This document shows positions 38,978 through 43,229 of a stretch of 64,000 bases of DNA, in pieces. The notes below the pieces were generated by a model. The model did no database searches. It was not told where the DNA came from and saw only the letters and a list, made by a program, of their open reading frames with translations. The stretch lies in NCBI GenBank assembly GCA_022823365.1, contig JAJDXG010000062.1, positions 1 through 64,000 on the forward strand. Reading direction: 5' to 3'. The position numbers and the translations under genes are program-made. Origin of the DNA: Gemmatimonadota bacterium. Lineage in GTDB: Bacteria; Gemmatimonadota; Gemmatimonadetes; Longimicrobiales; Gaopeijiaceae. The stretch's first letter is position 1. Each line of letters begins with the position of its first letter.

Positions 38978-40099
38978 CTAGCCGGCAGCCTCCATCAGCG
39001 AAACGAAGTCGTCGAACAGGTAGCGGCTGTCGTGCGGGCCGGGCGCCGCTTCGGGATGGTATTGCACGCAGAAGACCGGGAGCGAGCGATGGGCCATCCC
39101 CTCCACCGTGCCGTCGTAGAGGTTGAGGTGGGTGAGGCGCAGTTCCGGTGCTCCGGGGATCGCGTCCCCCTCTCCGCCCCTGACCGCGAAGCCGTGGTTC
39201 TGGGAGGTGATCTCGACCGTGCCCAGGTCCAGGTTGCGCACCGGATGGTTGGCGCCGTGATGCCCGAACGGCAGCTTGAAGGTCTCTGCCCCGAAGGCGC
39301 GCGCGATGAGCTGGTGCCCGAGGCAGATCCCGAACACCGGCACGCCGTCGTGTGCGCAGCGGCGGATGGTCCCGATGGCCATCTCCACCGCGGCGGGGTC
39401 GCCCGGGCCGTTCGACACGAAGAGCCCGTCCGGCCGTTCGCGCGCGATCTCTTCCGCCGGTGTGTTCGCGGGAACGACGGTCACCTCGCACCCGCGCTCG
39501 GCCAGGAGCCGCGGCGAGTTGGCCTTCACCCCCAGGTCGTAGGCGAACACCCGGAAGCGCGCCGGGCCCTCCGGCTCGACCACGTAGCGCTCCGGTGTCG
39601 AGACCCCGCCGGCCAGGTCGAGCCCTTCCATGCGCGGATGGGCGCGGATGCGCTCGAGCAGCACTTTCTCGTCGGTGTGGGCGTCGGCGATGGCCGCCCG
39701 CATGGCCCCCGCCGCGCGGATGTGGCGGGTCACCGCGCGCGTGTCCACCGACTGGATGCCCACCACGCCGTGCCGGATCAGGTAGTCTTCCAGCCCGGCG
39801 CTCGCCCGCCACGAGCTGTGCGCGCGCGCCACCTCGCGCACCACGAAGCCGGCGGCGGCCGGACGCCCGGATTCCTGGTCGGCGTCGTTGACCCCGTAGT
39901 TGCCGATGAGCGGGTAGGTCATCGTCACCAATTGCCCCGTGTAGGAGGGGTCGGTGAGGATTTCCTGATAGCCGGTCATCGCCGTGTTGAACACGACCTC
40001 GCCGAGGGCCTCGCCGCGCTTCCCCAGGAAGAACCCGTCGAAGCGCCGGCCATCTTCCAGGAGCAGGCAGGCTTCGGCGCGCTTCGTGGTGCGGATCAA
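38978..40099 (-). CDS. carA: Carbamoyl-phosphate synthase small subunit
   Basis: 373 residues. GEVVFNTAMTGYQEILTDPS, YPLIGNYGVND, FVVREVARAHSSWRA; then a class I glutamine amidotransferase domain with SNGPGDP, FGICLGHQLIARAFG (nucleophile Cys) and VQYHPEAAPGPHDS (His/Glu). It releases ammonia from glutamine for CarB. No carB follows; the next gene on this strand is HU, so carB lies elsewhere. Confidence 0.96.
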   Translation of the reverse strand: MIRTTKRAEACLLLEDGRRFDGFFLGKRGEALGEVVFNTAMTGYQEILTDPSYTGQLVTMTYPLIGNYGVNDADQESGRPAAAGFVVREVARAHSSWRASAGLEDYLIRHGVVGIQSVDTRAVTRHIRAAGAMRAAIADAHTDEKVLLERIRAHPRMEGLDLAGGVSTPERYVVEPEGPARFRVFAYDLGVKANSPRLLAERGCEVTVVPANTPAEEIARERPDGLFVSNGPGDPAAVEMAIGTIRRCAHDGVPVFGICLGHQLIARAFGAETFKLPFGHHGANHPVRNLDLGTVEITSQNHGFAVRGGEGDAIPGAPELRLTHLNLYDGTVEGMAHRSLPVFCVQYHPEAAPGPHDSRYLFDDFVSLMEAAG

Positions 40100-40215
40100 G
40101 GGCGGCGGATGGGTGGAGGGGCGGCTGCGCGGCTCGCGCGGAGGAGCGTCGGCAGGAATCTAGGAAAACGGCGGGGGGACCGCACCACCCCGGGGCGTTC
40201 CGTTAGATTCCCGGC

Positions 40216-40773
40216 ATGGTCCATATCCACGCCGACGAATCCTGTCTCGGAAACCAGTTCAAGGACCGGCAGCGGCCCGGTGGAGCCGCCGGACTGCTCG
40301 AGTTCTGGCGGGGCGACGCATGGGTTCGCAAGGATTTCTGGCTCGCCGAGCCCGACACGACCAACAATCGCATGGCGCTGATGAGCGCGATCGCCGGGCT
40401 CGGCGCGATCCGGCGCCCCAGCACAGTCCGCTTCGTCTCCGACAGCCAGTACCTGGTGCGCGGCATGAACGAGTGGGTGCGCGGCTGGCGTGCCCGCGGA
40501 TGGAAGCGCAAGCGGGGCGCGGTCGAGAACGTCGAACTCTGGCAACGGGCGCTCGGCCTGGCCGAATCGCACAAAGTGACCTGGGAGTGGGTTCGCGGGC
40601 ACTCGGGGAACCCCAGAAACGAGTACGTGCACGCCCTCGCGGTGCGCGCCGCAACCGAACAGCTCAACTCCGGCGGCGCGGTGGCCTCGGGCTTCGAGGA
40701 GTGGCTGGAGGAGCAGCGCGAGACGAAGGAGCGCTACTTCGATTTCTTCGAGGGAGCGCCGCCCAGGGACTGA
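40216..40773 (+). CDS. RNase HI-like protein with two catalytic residues replaced
   Basis: 185 residues. Alignment to E. coli RNase HI by eye is easy: HADESCLGN (D10 kept), TTNNRMALMSAI (E48 replaced by Ala), VSDSQYL (D70 kept), NVELWQRA, WEWVRGHSGNP (H124 kept) and NEYVHALAVRAA (D134 replaced by His). With two of four metal-binding carboxylates gone, normal RNA-DNA hybrid cleavage is unlikely. About 35 charged C-terminal residues are extra. It may bind hybrids or have another role. Divergent from carA. Confidence 0.85.
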   Translation: MVHIHADESCLGNQFKDRQRPGGAAGLLEFWRGDAWVRKDFWLAEPDTTNNRMALMSAIAGLGAIRRPSTVRFVSDSQYLVRGMNEWVRGWRARGWKRKRGAVENVELWQRALGLAESHKVTWEWVRGHSGNPRNEYVHALAVRAATEQLNSGGAVASGFEEWLEEQRETKERYFDFFEGAPPRD

Positions 40774-40879
40774 AGGCTCGCCCAAGGCGCGTAGGGGACC
40801 TCCGGGGGCGTCGCGGGCGTCAGCTTGGGAGCGTCAGGCTAGCTTGCCAGGAGCGTCGGACGAACGCGGGTTGCGTTAA

Positions 40880-41200
40880 ACGAAGCGGCCCCCGGTTCGG
40901 CACACCGAACTCGGGGGCCCTCTTCTCGCTGCCGGCACCAGTTCCTTCGCTTGAATCCCGGCCGCGTGCGGCCGACCGGCCCTGGTCCCTTTTCCCCTCG
41001 CCGCGTAGCGTGCGGCTCAGGTGCCCCTTCGCTTTCGGGGCTACTAGCGGAGGACAGCGACCCCTCCGCCGGCTCACCGGGGCTCAAGTCCCGGCTCGCG
41101 CCCGCTGCCTCGGCGTCCCGCCTCAGCGAGCTTCCCTCTCCGAGCTGCTCTCCAGGGATGACCATCGCCATCGACTGTGAGCCTGCTACGCTCGAAGCGG
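40880..41200 (-). ncRNA. Unidentified structured RNA gene
   Basis: No plausible protein gene occupies 40,774-41,330. On the minus strand there is a near-consensus promoter ending at 41,207 and, about 300 bases downstream, a strong hairpin terminator at 40,887-40,919. Between them several local hairpins can be drawn: 41,067-41,045 (GCGGAGG/CCTCCGC arms), 41,041-41,023 (GCCCC/GGGGC), 41,016-41,000 (GCCGC/GCGGC) and 40,974-40,958 (CGGCCGC/CGGCCG-type). I looked for hallmarks of tmRNA, RNase P, SRP and 6S RNA and did not find them. An ATG frame inside (41,171 down) gives a low-complexity peptide. Confidence 0.6.
40887..40919. terminator. Bidirectional hairpin terminator
   Basis: A 14-bp stem: GGCCCCCG pairs with CGGGGGCC and GTTCGG with CCGAAC, CACA loop, one bulged T. 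The minus strand continues GCTTCGTTTAA and the plus strand CTCTTCTC, both moderately T-rich. It would end the minus-strand RNA and the convergent RNase H-like gene. Confidence 0.75.
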
Positions 41201-41206
41201 ACTACC

Positions 41207-41235
41207 ATGATAGGGGTCCGTTTCGGCCGTGTCAA
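41207..41235 (-). promoter_or_regulatory. Near-consensus sigma-70-type promoter of the RNA gene
   Basis: Minus strand: TTGACA (41,235-41,230), a 17-base spacer, then TATCAT (41,212-41,207). The -35 is perfect, the spacing ideal and the -10 one base off consensus. No coding region follows within 300 bases. Confidence 0.75.
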
Positions 41236-41330
41236 GGGGTATTTGGGACGAATTTCGGATGAATTCCCAAATCCGCTCTCGACCGCGCGCAGACCGTTGT
41301 CGATGGGGCGCCGAGGCCCGAGCCGGCGCC

Positions 41331-42344
41331 TCAGAGGATCCCTTCCATCTCCCTCAGGAAGAGGCGTGCGTCGAGCCAGTAGTTAGGGTAGGCGCGCCGG
41401 ACATCCTCGAGCGAGTCGGTGGAAACGAGCACGACGTCGCGGCCCTCCTCCTCGAATGCGAGGTAGTCCGCGGAGGCCTCCTCGAGCTCGTCCCTTTCGT
41501 AGGGAATGATGAGGGTCATCCCCTCGGCCGGCCTGCGCTCCAGCAGGAAGTAGTAGGCGCCGATGCGCTTGAAGGTCGACATGTTGCGGATGAGCTGCCC
41601 GTACTCGCGCATGCGCGCCACCACGTTCAGGCGCGTGGCGTATTCCCGCACCTCCCGATGGAGGGTGGACGCGTCGGAGGGGGTGTCCGGGACCGTGGGG
41701 GATCCCTCTTTGAGGGCGAGCGCCGAACTGGCGAGGGCGAAGAAGCGGAGCCACTCCTGCTCCCCCTCGCTGAACTTGAGAGCGTGCTGCAGGAAGGCTC
41801 CCGCAGTTTCCACGGCAGTCGCCCACGCGTGCTGCAGCCGCGAGCGCATCTGGACCTCGATGACGAGCCCGTTGAAGGCGTCGTCGCTCTGGTAGCGGTA
41901 GATGAGGTGCACACCGCGGTAGCCGGAGGGCTTGGGACGGTCGATGTAGTCGATGTTGCGGATGAGCTTGTGGCCCAGGTCCAGGGCCAGGTAGGCGTCG
42001 CGCAGTTCCCGCACCTGCTCGATGGTGTGGACCGCGGCCCGGCACCCGCCCAGGTCCTGCATGCGGGCGAGCTGCATGCGGGGGAAGCGGCGCAGCTTGG
42101 ACAGGGTCGACGGCGTGGTCTTGAGCCGCTGGGAGACGACGGCGTCGCTCGCGATGTTCGTGGCCTCGGCGCGGAGACGGTCGTGCAGCTCGCTCAGCGG
42201 GAACCCGTGGGCGGCTCGCCAGTTGTTGAGCACGCGCATGTCTTCGCGCAACTCCGGGGACGAGCGGTCCCCGTCGGCGGTGGCGAGCGCCTTGCCGGCA
42301 CGGTTGATGCGCCCGCGCGAGTATCGGAGAGGGGTGCGGTCCAC
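41331..42344 (-). CDS. RelA/SpoT-domain (alarmone synthetase-like) protein
   Basis: 337 residues, GTG start 12 bases after lipB. Synthetase-domain features: KLRRFPRMQLARMQDLGGCR, then KPSGYRGVHLIYRYQSD and VIEVQMRSRLQHAWA (catalytic Glu). There is no HD hydrolase domain and no TGS or ACT regulatory domain, so it is a stand-alone synthetase type. The C-terminal 140 residues are unusual and include FKRIGAYYFLLE. Such proteins make (p)ppGpp-like nucleotides or, in some toxin clades, modify tRNA or make ppApp. Which one applies cannot be decided here. Confidence 0.82.
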   Translation of the reverse strand: MDRTPLRYSRGRINRAGKALATADGDRSSPELREDMRVLNNWRAAHGFPLSELHDRLRAEATNIASDAVVSQRLKTTPSTLSKLRRFPRMQLARMQDLGGCRAAVHTIEQVRELRDAYLALDLGHKLIRNIDYIDRPKPSGYRGVHLIYRYQSDDAFNGLVIEVQMRSRLQHAWATAVETAGAFLQHALKFSEGEQEWLRFFALASSALALKEGSPTVPDTPSDASTLHREVREYATRLNVVARMREYGQLIRNMSTFKRIGAYYFLLERRPAEGMTLIIPYERDELEEASADYLAFEEEGRDVVLVSTDSLEDVRRAYPNYWLDARLFLREMEGIL

Positions 42345-42356
42345 GGCGTCGGCGCG

Positions 42357-43229
42357 TCAGGTGCGGCGACCGGGGTTTTCCCCCGGCCCCGCCGGGATCT
42401 CGGGGCGGTCCCGAAGGCCATCGGCCGCCTCTCGCGGGGAGCGATGCGCTGGAGAGGCCGCGAACACCTCGGCGAACGCGGACACGACGGCGTCCTCGAC
42501 TGCCGCCATCGGCACGGGGCCGCCGATGCATTCGACGAGCGAGGTGACCTCGCGGCCGTGGATGCCGCAGGGGACGATGTTGGCGAAATAGTCGAGGTCG
42601 GGATCGACGTTGAGGGCGAACCCGTGCGAGGTGACCCAGCCGGACGAGACCCGGATGCCGATGGCGGCGATCTTCCGTCCCCCGGTCCAGACGCCGGTGA
42701 GGCCATCCGCCCGCGCGGCGGGCACTCCGAACGCCGCCAGCGCGCGGATGAGCACCTCCTCCAGGTCCCTCAGGTAGCGGTGCAGGTCGCGGCGCTCCCG
42801 GCCGAGCCGGAGGATCGGGTAGCCGACCAGTTGCCCGGGCCCGTGGTAGGTCACGTCCCCTCCCCTGCCCGCTTCGAAGAGGTCGATGCCCCGCTCGCGC
42901 AACTGGGCGTCGCTGGCAAGGACGTGGTCGCGGTGGGCGCTCGACCCCAGCGTCACCACGTGCGGGTGCTCGAGCAGGAGGAGCTGGTCGGGGATCTCGC
43001 CGGCCGCGCGGCGGCGCACCAGGCCGGCCTGCAGGTCGAGGGCGCGCACGTACTCGACCAGCCCCGGGCGGATGACTTCCAGGGCCGCGGGTTGCGGCTC
43101 GGATTCAGCCAGGTCGCTCAACCCGTGCGGCGCGGCCTTGAAAGGGGCCTGAACGTAGTGGTCTCTGGCCGGGCGCATCGCAGGGAGTCGTTCCGTCGGT
43201 TGATTGAGTTCAGCGGCCGAGGAACTCAT
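42357..43229 (-). CDS. lipB: Octanoyl-[acyl-carrier-protein]:protein octanoyltransferase
   Basis: 290 residues, longer than usual at both ends; the true start may be later. LEHPHVVTLGSSAHRDHVL, GRGGDVTYHGPGQLVGYPIL, GVWTGGRKIAAIGIRV (catalytic Lys) and IVPCGIHGREVTSL (nucleophile Cys) are complete. It moves octanoyl groups onto lipoyl domains, which fits the E2 gene some 4 kb away. Start context is weak. Confidence 0.93.
   Translation of the reverse strand: MSSSAAELNQPTERLPAMRPARDHYVQAPFKAAPHGLSDLAESEPQPAALEVIRPGLVEYVRALDLQAGLVRRRAAGEIPDQLLLLEHPHVVTLGSSAHRDHVLASDAQLRERGIDLFEAGRGGDVTYHGPGQLVGYPILRLGRERRDLHRYLRDLEEVLIRALAAFGVPAARADGLTGVWTGGRKIAAIGIRVSSGWVTSHGFALNVDPDLDYFANIVPCGIHGREVTSLVECIGGPVPMAAVEDAVVSAFAEVFAASPAHRSPREAADGLRDRPEIPAGPGENPGRRT

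Follow-up and report, generated by a model that had tools for sequence, protein, structure and literature searches.

A conserved, covarying RNA structure with promoter-like and terminator-like signals in Gemmatimonadota

Comparative sequence analysis of a 64,000-nt stretch of a Gemmatimonadota contig (the window) pointed to a conserved, covarying RNA structure with promoter-like and terminator-like signals of its own. Promoter and terminator signals, covarying structure and the lack of a conserved ORF together meet the description of a structured stand-alone noncoding RNA. We lean, with some confidence, towards a noncoding RNA of a new family that is encoded by its own free-standing gene, folds compactly and acts in trans. 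The novelty is at the level of the RNA family, no Rfam 15 family having matched; the broad kind is that of orphan structured RNAs, and the mechanism may yet prove to be a familiar one. A bolder reading, for which we regard the odds as even, makes it a new class among large structured bacterial RNAs, present in much of Gemmatimonadota with a few gammaproteobacterial copies, combining a pseudoknotted core with a T-loop-like module and serving, as RNP scaffold, global regulator or catalyst, in a role that no characterised RNA has.

Few bacterial RNA classes of such size and complexity are known, and this one occurs widely within a phylum on whose RNA biology literature searches found nothing. An open-access literature search found no description of this RNA, and surveys that used the GC-IGR method to look for bacterial ncRNA do not mention Gemmatimonadota in the main text. 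The covariation is clear, the pseudoknot can be mutated pair by pair and a copy exists in a named complete genome (Gemmatirosa kalamazoonensis); its function is therefore directly approachable.

Locus, signals and conservation

The original prediction had placed an unidentified RNA gene, without naming a strand, in a 550-base gap. The gap is there, about 557 bases from the end of rnhA (40773) to a RelA/SpoT-like gene (41331), and the RNA gene is on the minus strand. The features of the locus are as follows; R1 is a covariance model of the RNA core and R2 a broader model.

38978-40099, minus strand: carA (carbamoyl-phosphate synthase small chain), from annotation and synteny
40216-40773, plus strand: RNase H gene (rnhA-like), convergent with the RNA gene; Pfam PF00075, E 2e-28, and the same neighbour in other genera
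40880-41200, minus strand: RNA gene, about 320 nt, ends approximate; from genus conservation and R1 and R2 matches
40919-40887, minus strand: intrinsic-terminator-like hairpin of 14 pairs with one bulge; from the sequence, the genus alignment and the full-length structure
41212-41207, minus strand: -10 hexamer TATCAT, after a 17-bp spacer; from the promoter scan and genus alignment
41235-41230, minus strand: -35 hexamer TTGACA; from the promoter scan, kept in the genus alignment
41331-42344, minus strand: RelA/SpoT-domain gene; Pfam PF04607, E 2e-12
42357-43229, minus strand: lipB-like gene, which adjoins the RNA upstream in other genera; Pfam PF21948 and synteny

The predicted near-consensus promoter, TTGACA-17-TATCAT, was confirmed on the minus strand (41235-41207) with 11 of 12 matches. 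It was the only sigma-70-like site found by a scan of 40000-42000, with 0.2 expected from shuffles, and we infer that the RNA starts about 7 nt past the -10 hexamer. Of 48 homologues, 19 were preceded by promoter-like sites with at least 9 of 12 matches, compared with 3% of shuffles, and a homologue from another family (L104) had TTGACG-17-TATCAT upstream. The 14-bp-stem terminator foreseen some 300 bases past the promoter corresponds to the hairpin at 40919-40887, which reads GGCCCCCG-A-GTTCGG-TGTG-CCGAAC-CGGGGGCC on the minus strand (14 pairs, one bulged A) and is followed by a weak T tail (GCTTCGTTTAAC). It was missing from the list produced by the automatic terminator scan, presumably because of this poor T run; in several relatives, 3' hairpins are followed by long T tails, longer than that of the window copy. 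The 326-nt minus strand is GC-rich and folds at -172.5 kcal/mol (z = -4.1 relative to dinucleotide shuffles).

Absence of conservation had been named as an outcome that would remove the gene; instead conservation was strong and accompanied by covariation. Nine genomes of the window's genus carry the 366-base stretch at 89-99% identity; in eight it is complete, and in one a contig end truncates it. These loci retain the promoter and the terminator hairpin, and the bases on either side diverge fast. Other genera of the family carry diverged copies (68-78% identity locally) at the same site, in the order lipB, RNA, rnhA (convergent), carA, and in some family genomes lipB directly adjoins rnhA with no RNA between them. 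The RelA/SpoT-like gene may encode a small alarmone synthetase; among the loci examined, it separates lipB from the RNA in the window's genus alone.

In locus L011, a palindrome resembling TTGTTGTCTAGACAACAA follows closely on lipB at approximately 1152-1172, some 300 bases upstream of the RNA. It occupies the same place in L012, L013, L014, L017, L018 and L020, with variants in L016 and L020, and is found in related genera and not in the window's own. Further short common blocks, such as CTGTTTACG, follow it in several loci. The palindrome might serve as an operator or act as a second regulatory element.

Secondary structure and pseudoknot

The original prediction had noted several stable hairpins; the covariation analysis supported eight or more covarying helices. 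The structural elements, all on the minus strand, are as follows.

41138-41197, minus strand: P2 stem, 41197-41190 with 41145-41138, enclosing P3; 63% paired in a 20-sequence alignment
Inside P2, minus strand: P3 hairpin, 41172-41168 with 41161-41157; pairing of 100% across 20 sequences, a double change seen once
41100-41131, minus strand: P4 hairpin, 41131-41124 with 41107-41100, inner part 41122-41119 with 41115-41112; from covariation
41072-41099, minus strand: P5 hairpin with a T-loop-like tip (UUCGA-like in many relatives, CUUGAG here); from covariation
41046-41070, minus strand: P6 hairpin, whose conserved loop contains GUCGCUG; 8 pairs, 7 with double changes
41055-41060, minus strand: pseudoknot strand 1, UCGCUG in the P6 loop; from RNAalifold and homologue comparison
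41023-41041, minus strand: P7 hairpin (GCCCC/GGGGC); from covariation and the full-length structure
40995-41021, minus strand: P8 two-part hairpin (CCU/GGG and GCCGC/GCGGC); from covariation and the full-length structure
40935-40988, minus strand: P9 stem, 40988-40982 with 40941-40935, a single mismatch; together with the enclosed P10 a variable part of the family; 63% paired in the 20-sequence alignment
Inside P9, minus strand: P10, 40974-40968 with 40965-40959; from the full-length structure
40926-40931, minus strand: pseudoknot strand 2, CAGCGA, 3' of P9; from RNAalifold and compensatory variants

We analysed 48 diverse sequences aligned with MAFFT on sequence only, using a structure drawn by hand from one member from which pairs below 50% were dropped. 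The 39 core pairs were formed in 82.6% of cells, a figure that leans towards structure because of the way the model was drawn and trimmed. Both sides had changed in 38 of the 39 pairs, and such double changes are stronger evidence than the percentage paired; we regard the covariation as decisive. There were 328 double-changed cells, against 116 (sd 10) after shuffling; none of 500 shuffles reached the observed value on any measure, and slid registers all fell to 38-48% paired. Every pair of P4 had double changes, the tip in relatives being of the GACG or GAUA type, and one column pair of P6 was found as UA, AU, CG and GC. In the full-length structure, examined in 20 family members, 53 of 87 pairs had double changes, with P2 and P9 poorly supported (63% paired). 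L062, L066 and L067 carry an extra insert inside P9 (alignment columns ~294-325), which makes P9 a variable arm. As the fold has been kept by paired mutations, the RNA probably matters to the cell.

From the full-length alignment, RNAalifold predicted pairing between the conserved loop of P6 and a conserved 3' motif ahead of the terminator, and the loop hexamer was complementary to that motif in nearly all of the 48 homologues. The commonest pairing was CGCUGG/CCAGCG, and the window itself has CGCUGU/GCAGCG. Compensatory variants were CGUUGG/CCAACG (L055, L016), CACUGG/CCAGUG (L104) and UGCUGG/CCAGCA (L113); a G-U pair occurred in L112 and in the second L104 copy. The exceptions were L118, without a clear partner, and L106, L108 and L115, with one mismatch each. 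A length-of-match test was only moderately discriminating (at least 6 pairs in 96% of cases, against 36% in shuffled downstream sequence). Thus, the argument for the pseudoknot rests on its constant position and compensatory states rather than on that test.

Distribution across genomes

In the taxonomic family R1 matched 78 of 121 genomes at E up to 1e-3, and in the phylum 85 of 298. R2 found the RNA in 117 of 395 Gemmatimonadota genomes, spread over six families, with one to four copies per genome; the match was below 1e-8 in 95 of the 117, and the other 22, above 1e-8, came mostly from one genus, the weakest being uncertain. About 70% of sampled phylum genomes had no R2 match, among them well-assembled close relatives (G014, G035, G009), so that the RNA is either dispensable there or too diverged to be seen. 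Gene neighbourhoods vary outside the window's family. The patchy and sometimes multi-copy spread suggests an accessory, occasionally transferred function, not a universal housekeeping one. The RNA is present on the 1.04-Mb plasmid of Gemmatirosa kalamazoonensis, at coordinates that match, on NZ_CP007130, those of genome G217, which has three predicted copies and which we therefore infer to be this strain. Genome G072 has four copies, and L104 carries two 1.5 kb apart on one contig (5730-5906 and 7208-7384), each with its own TTGACG-17 promoter-like site.

In a proteobacterial background of 246 genomes of one order and 398 of that phylum, R2 gave a match below 1e-8 only in the centre genome, alongside four weak matches; we took the weak ones to Steroidobacterales L175-L177 (25-32 bits) and to G1032 (29 bits) to be chance. 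When named genomes were scanned with a pattern, there were 18 matches, seven of them not labelled Gemmatimonadota. Those in Poseidonocella, Alsobacter, Spirochaetia and Burkholderia failed the covariance model and were dropped, and the survivors were two Steroidobacteraceae MAGs and one other gammaproteobacterial MAG. These matched R1 at about 1e-16 and R2 at about 1e-32, R2 having been built with the three included. They come from different isolates and share flanking genes in the same order at 54-86% protein identity; by eye, these are def- and fmt-like on one side in two MAGs and thrC-like on the other in all three. Contamination or binning error is therefore an unlikely source of these copies. 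A blast search of phages for the RNA was empty, and the match of the pattern to a viral contig (L178, 10.9 bits) was a chance one.

Function, alternatives and comparison with known RNA classes

The favoured reading, a free-standing trans-acting RNA, implies a chain of steps that remain inferences. The RNA would be transcribed strongly as a discrete molecule, for which there are no expression data. Its 3' strand would dock into the P6 loop and P5 would present a T-loop-like tip, giving a compact fold. By analogy, it might then act in trans through one or more bound proteins, as an RNP scaffold or a sequestering regulator, and presumably neither by antisense pairing nor by control of an adjacent gene. 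6S is a stand-alone structured RNA that acts by binding protein, and the same is suspected for raiA/ModT; if that analogy holds, our RNA, too, is probably a regulator that binds protein or functions as an RNP, in the manner of raiA/ModT or OLE. The fixed unpaired bases (the P4 GACG/GAUA tip, P5 UUCGA and the P6 GUCGCUGG loop) would suit tertiary contacts and protein or ligand binding better than antisense pairing. No protein was common to most of 20 loci beside RNA copies, so that a protein-binding mechanism is supported by analogy only.

The same lack of a common partner weighs against an RNA belonging to a mobile or defence element (a guide-like RNA, retron or type III antitoxin) that became fixed between lipB and rnhA in the family. 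Patchy, multi-copy occurrence without synteny outside the family, the copy on the Gemmatirosa megaplasmid and the sporadic gammaproteobacterial copies fit such an origin; however, no phage match was found, the sole viral-contig pattern match was not the RNA, and the RelA/SpoT-like gene accompanies the RNA only in the window's genus. We consider a mobile origin unlikely, and, since the RNA also occurs where the RelA/SpoT-like neighbour is missing, we rejected a type III toxin-antitoxin pairing of the two. A ribozyme or other catalytic RNA, which the compact pseudoknotted core and the many invariant unpaired bases would allow, seems slightly less probable again, as nothing matched any Rfam ribozyme family and the hammerhead II line (14 bits, E 6.4) was chance. 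Control of a neighbouring gene by a cis-acting leader or riboswitch is very improbable. The RNA does sit just upstream of the thrC-like gene in the gammaproteobacterial MAGs, but it has its own terminator-like hairpin, and a constant co-directional downstream gene was not found in 20 loci: the next gene 3' of the RNA, rnhA, is convergent here and in related genera, and the neighbours change in other families. Hence the RNA is not cis-regulatory here. That the locus encodes a small protein we find scarcely credible, despite a 110-aa open frame on the minus strand. The original prediction had seen no believable protein, and we agree. ORFs of the gap had no Pfam match, no conserved ORF was found across homologues (the longest, 56 aa against 54 aa in shuffled sequence, lie in different regions and do not align) and genus copies differ by 1-nt, frame-breaking indels.

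There remains the possibility of a housekeeping RNA (RNase P, tmRNA, SRP or 6S) in an unrecognised form peculiar to this lineage, which we doubt somewhat more than catalysis and less than cis-regulation. The size would suit RNase P or tmRNA. Of 121 Gemmatimonadota genomes, none had a 6S RNA scoring above the Rfam cut-off; in the phylum 6S is either missing or far diverged, which makes a functional substitute conceivable. Against this, the RNA is present in only about 30% of phylum genomes, and, in genome-wide searches that left out SRP RNA, two of the candidates have separate copies: a true tmRNA (RF00023) in its own genome (G000:C58:13054-13409, 168 bits) and RNase P (RF00010, 272-280 bits) in six genus genomes. 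RNase P RNA was not found in the window's own assembly, probably because of an assembly gap. Signatures of tmRNA, RNase P and 6S had been reported missing, and none emerged: ARAGORN detected no tRNA, tmRNA or tRNA-like domain here, the class A RNase P model had no match in the window and the 6S model (RF00013) did not match. An Rfam hit would have made the RNA ordinary, yet the window matched no Rfam 15 family; lines in the gap at lax thresholds (GRIK4 3'UTR at 15.5 bits, Mnt IRES at 9.8 bits and the hammerhead II line) were chance. Nor did cmscan match any Rfam family in 23 homologous loci (13 diverged ones at E up to 0.5, 10 more at E up to 1), and a gathering-threshold scan of 13 long loci returned neighbouring tRNAs only. 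Thus, we could assign the RNA to no known class.

The trans-acting RNA that we favour resembles several known systems. 6S is a single rod with one central bubble; like 6S, our RNA would be a stand-alone, abundant regulator, and unlike it, it forms a covarying, pseudoknotted multi-hairpin structure that the 6S model does not recognise. It shares similar length and pseudoknots with tmRNA and RNase P, which are present as true copies elsewhere in the same or sister genomes, and no tRNA-like domain was found in it. ModT, the raiA motif RNA of Bacillota and Actinomycetota, is very abundant and acts in trans on growth transition; like our RNA, it is stand-alone, structured and broadly conserved, with no settled mechanism (PMC11706538). 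The two differ in the phyla that they occupy, and our RNA has no Rfam match to raiA. OLE, GOLLD and ROOL RNAs are larger than this RNA, which matches none of their models. They are, like our RNA, orphan, ornate bacterial RNAs with complex folds, and they form homo-oligomeric RNA complexes (PMC12286853).
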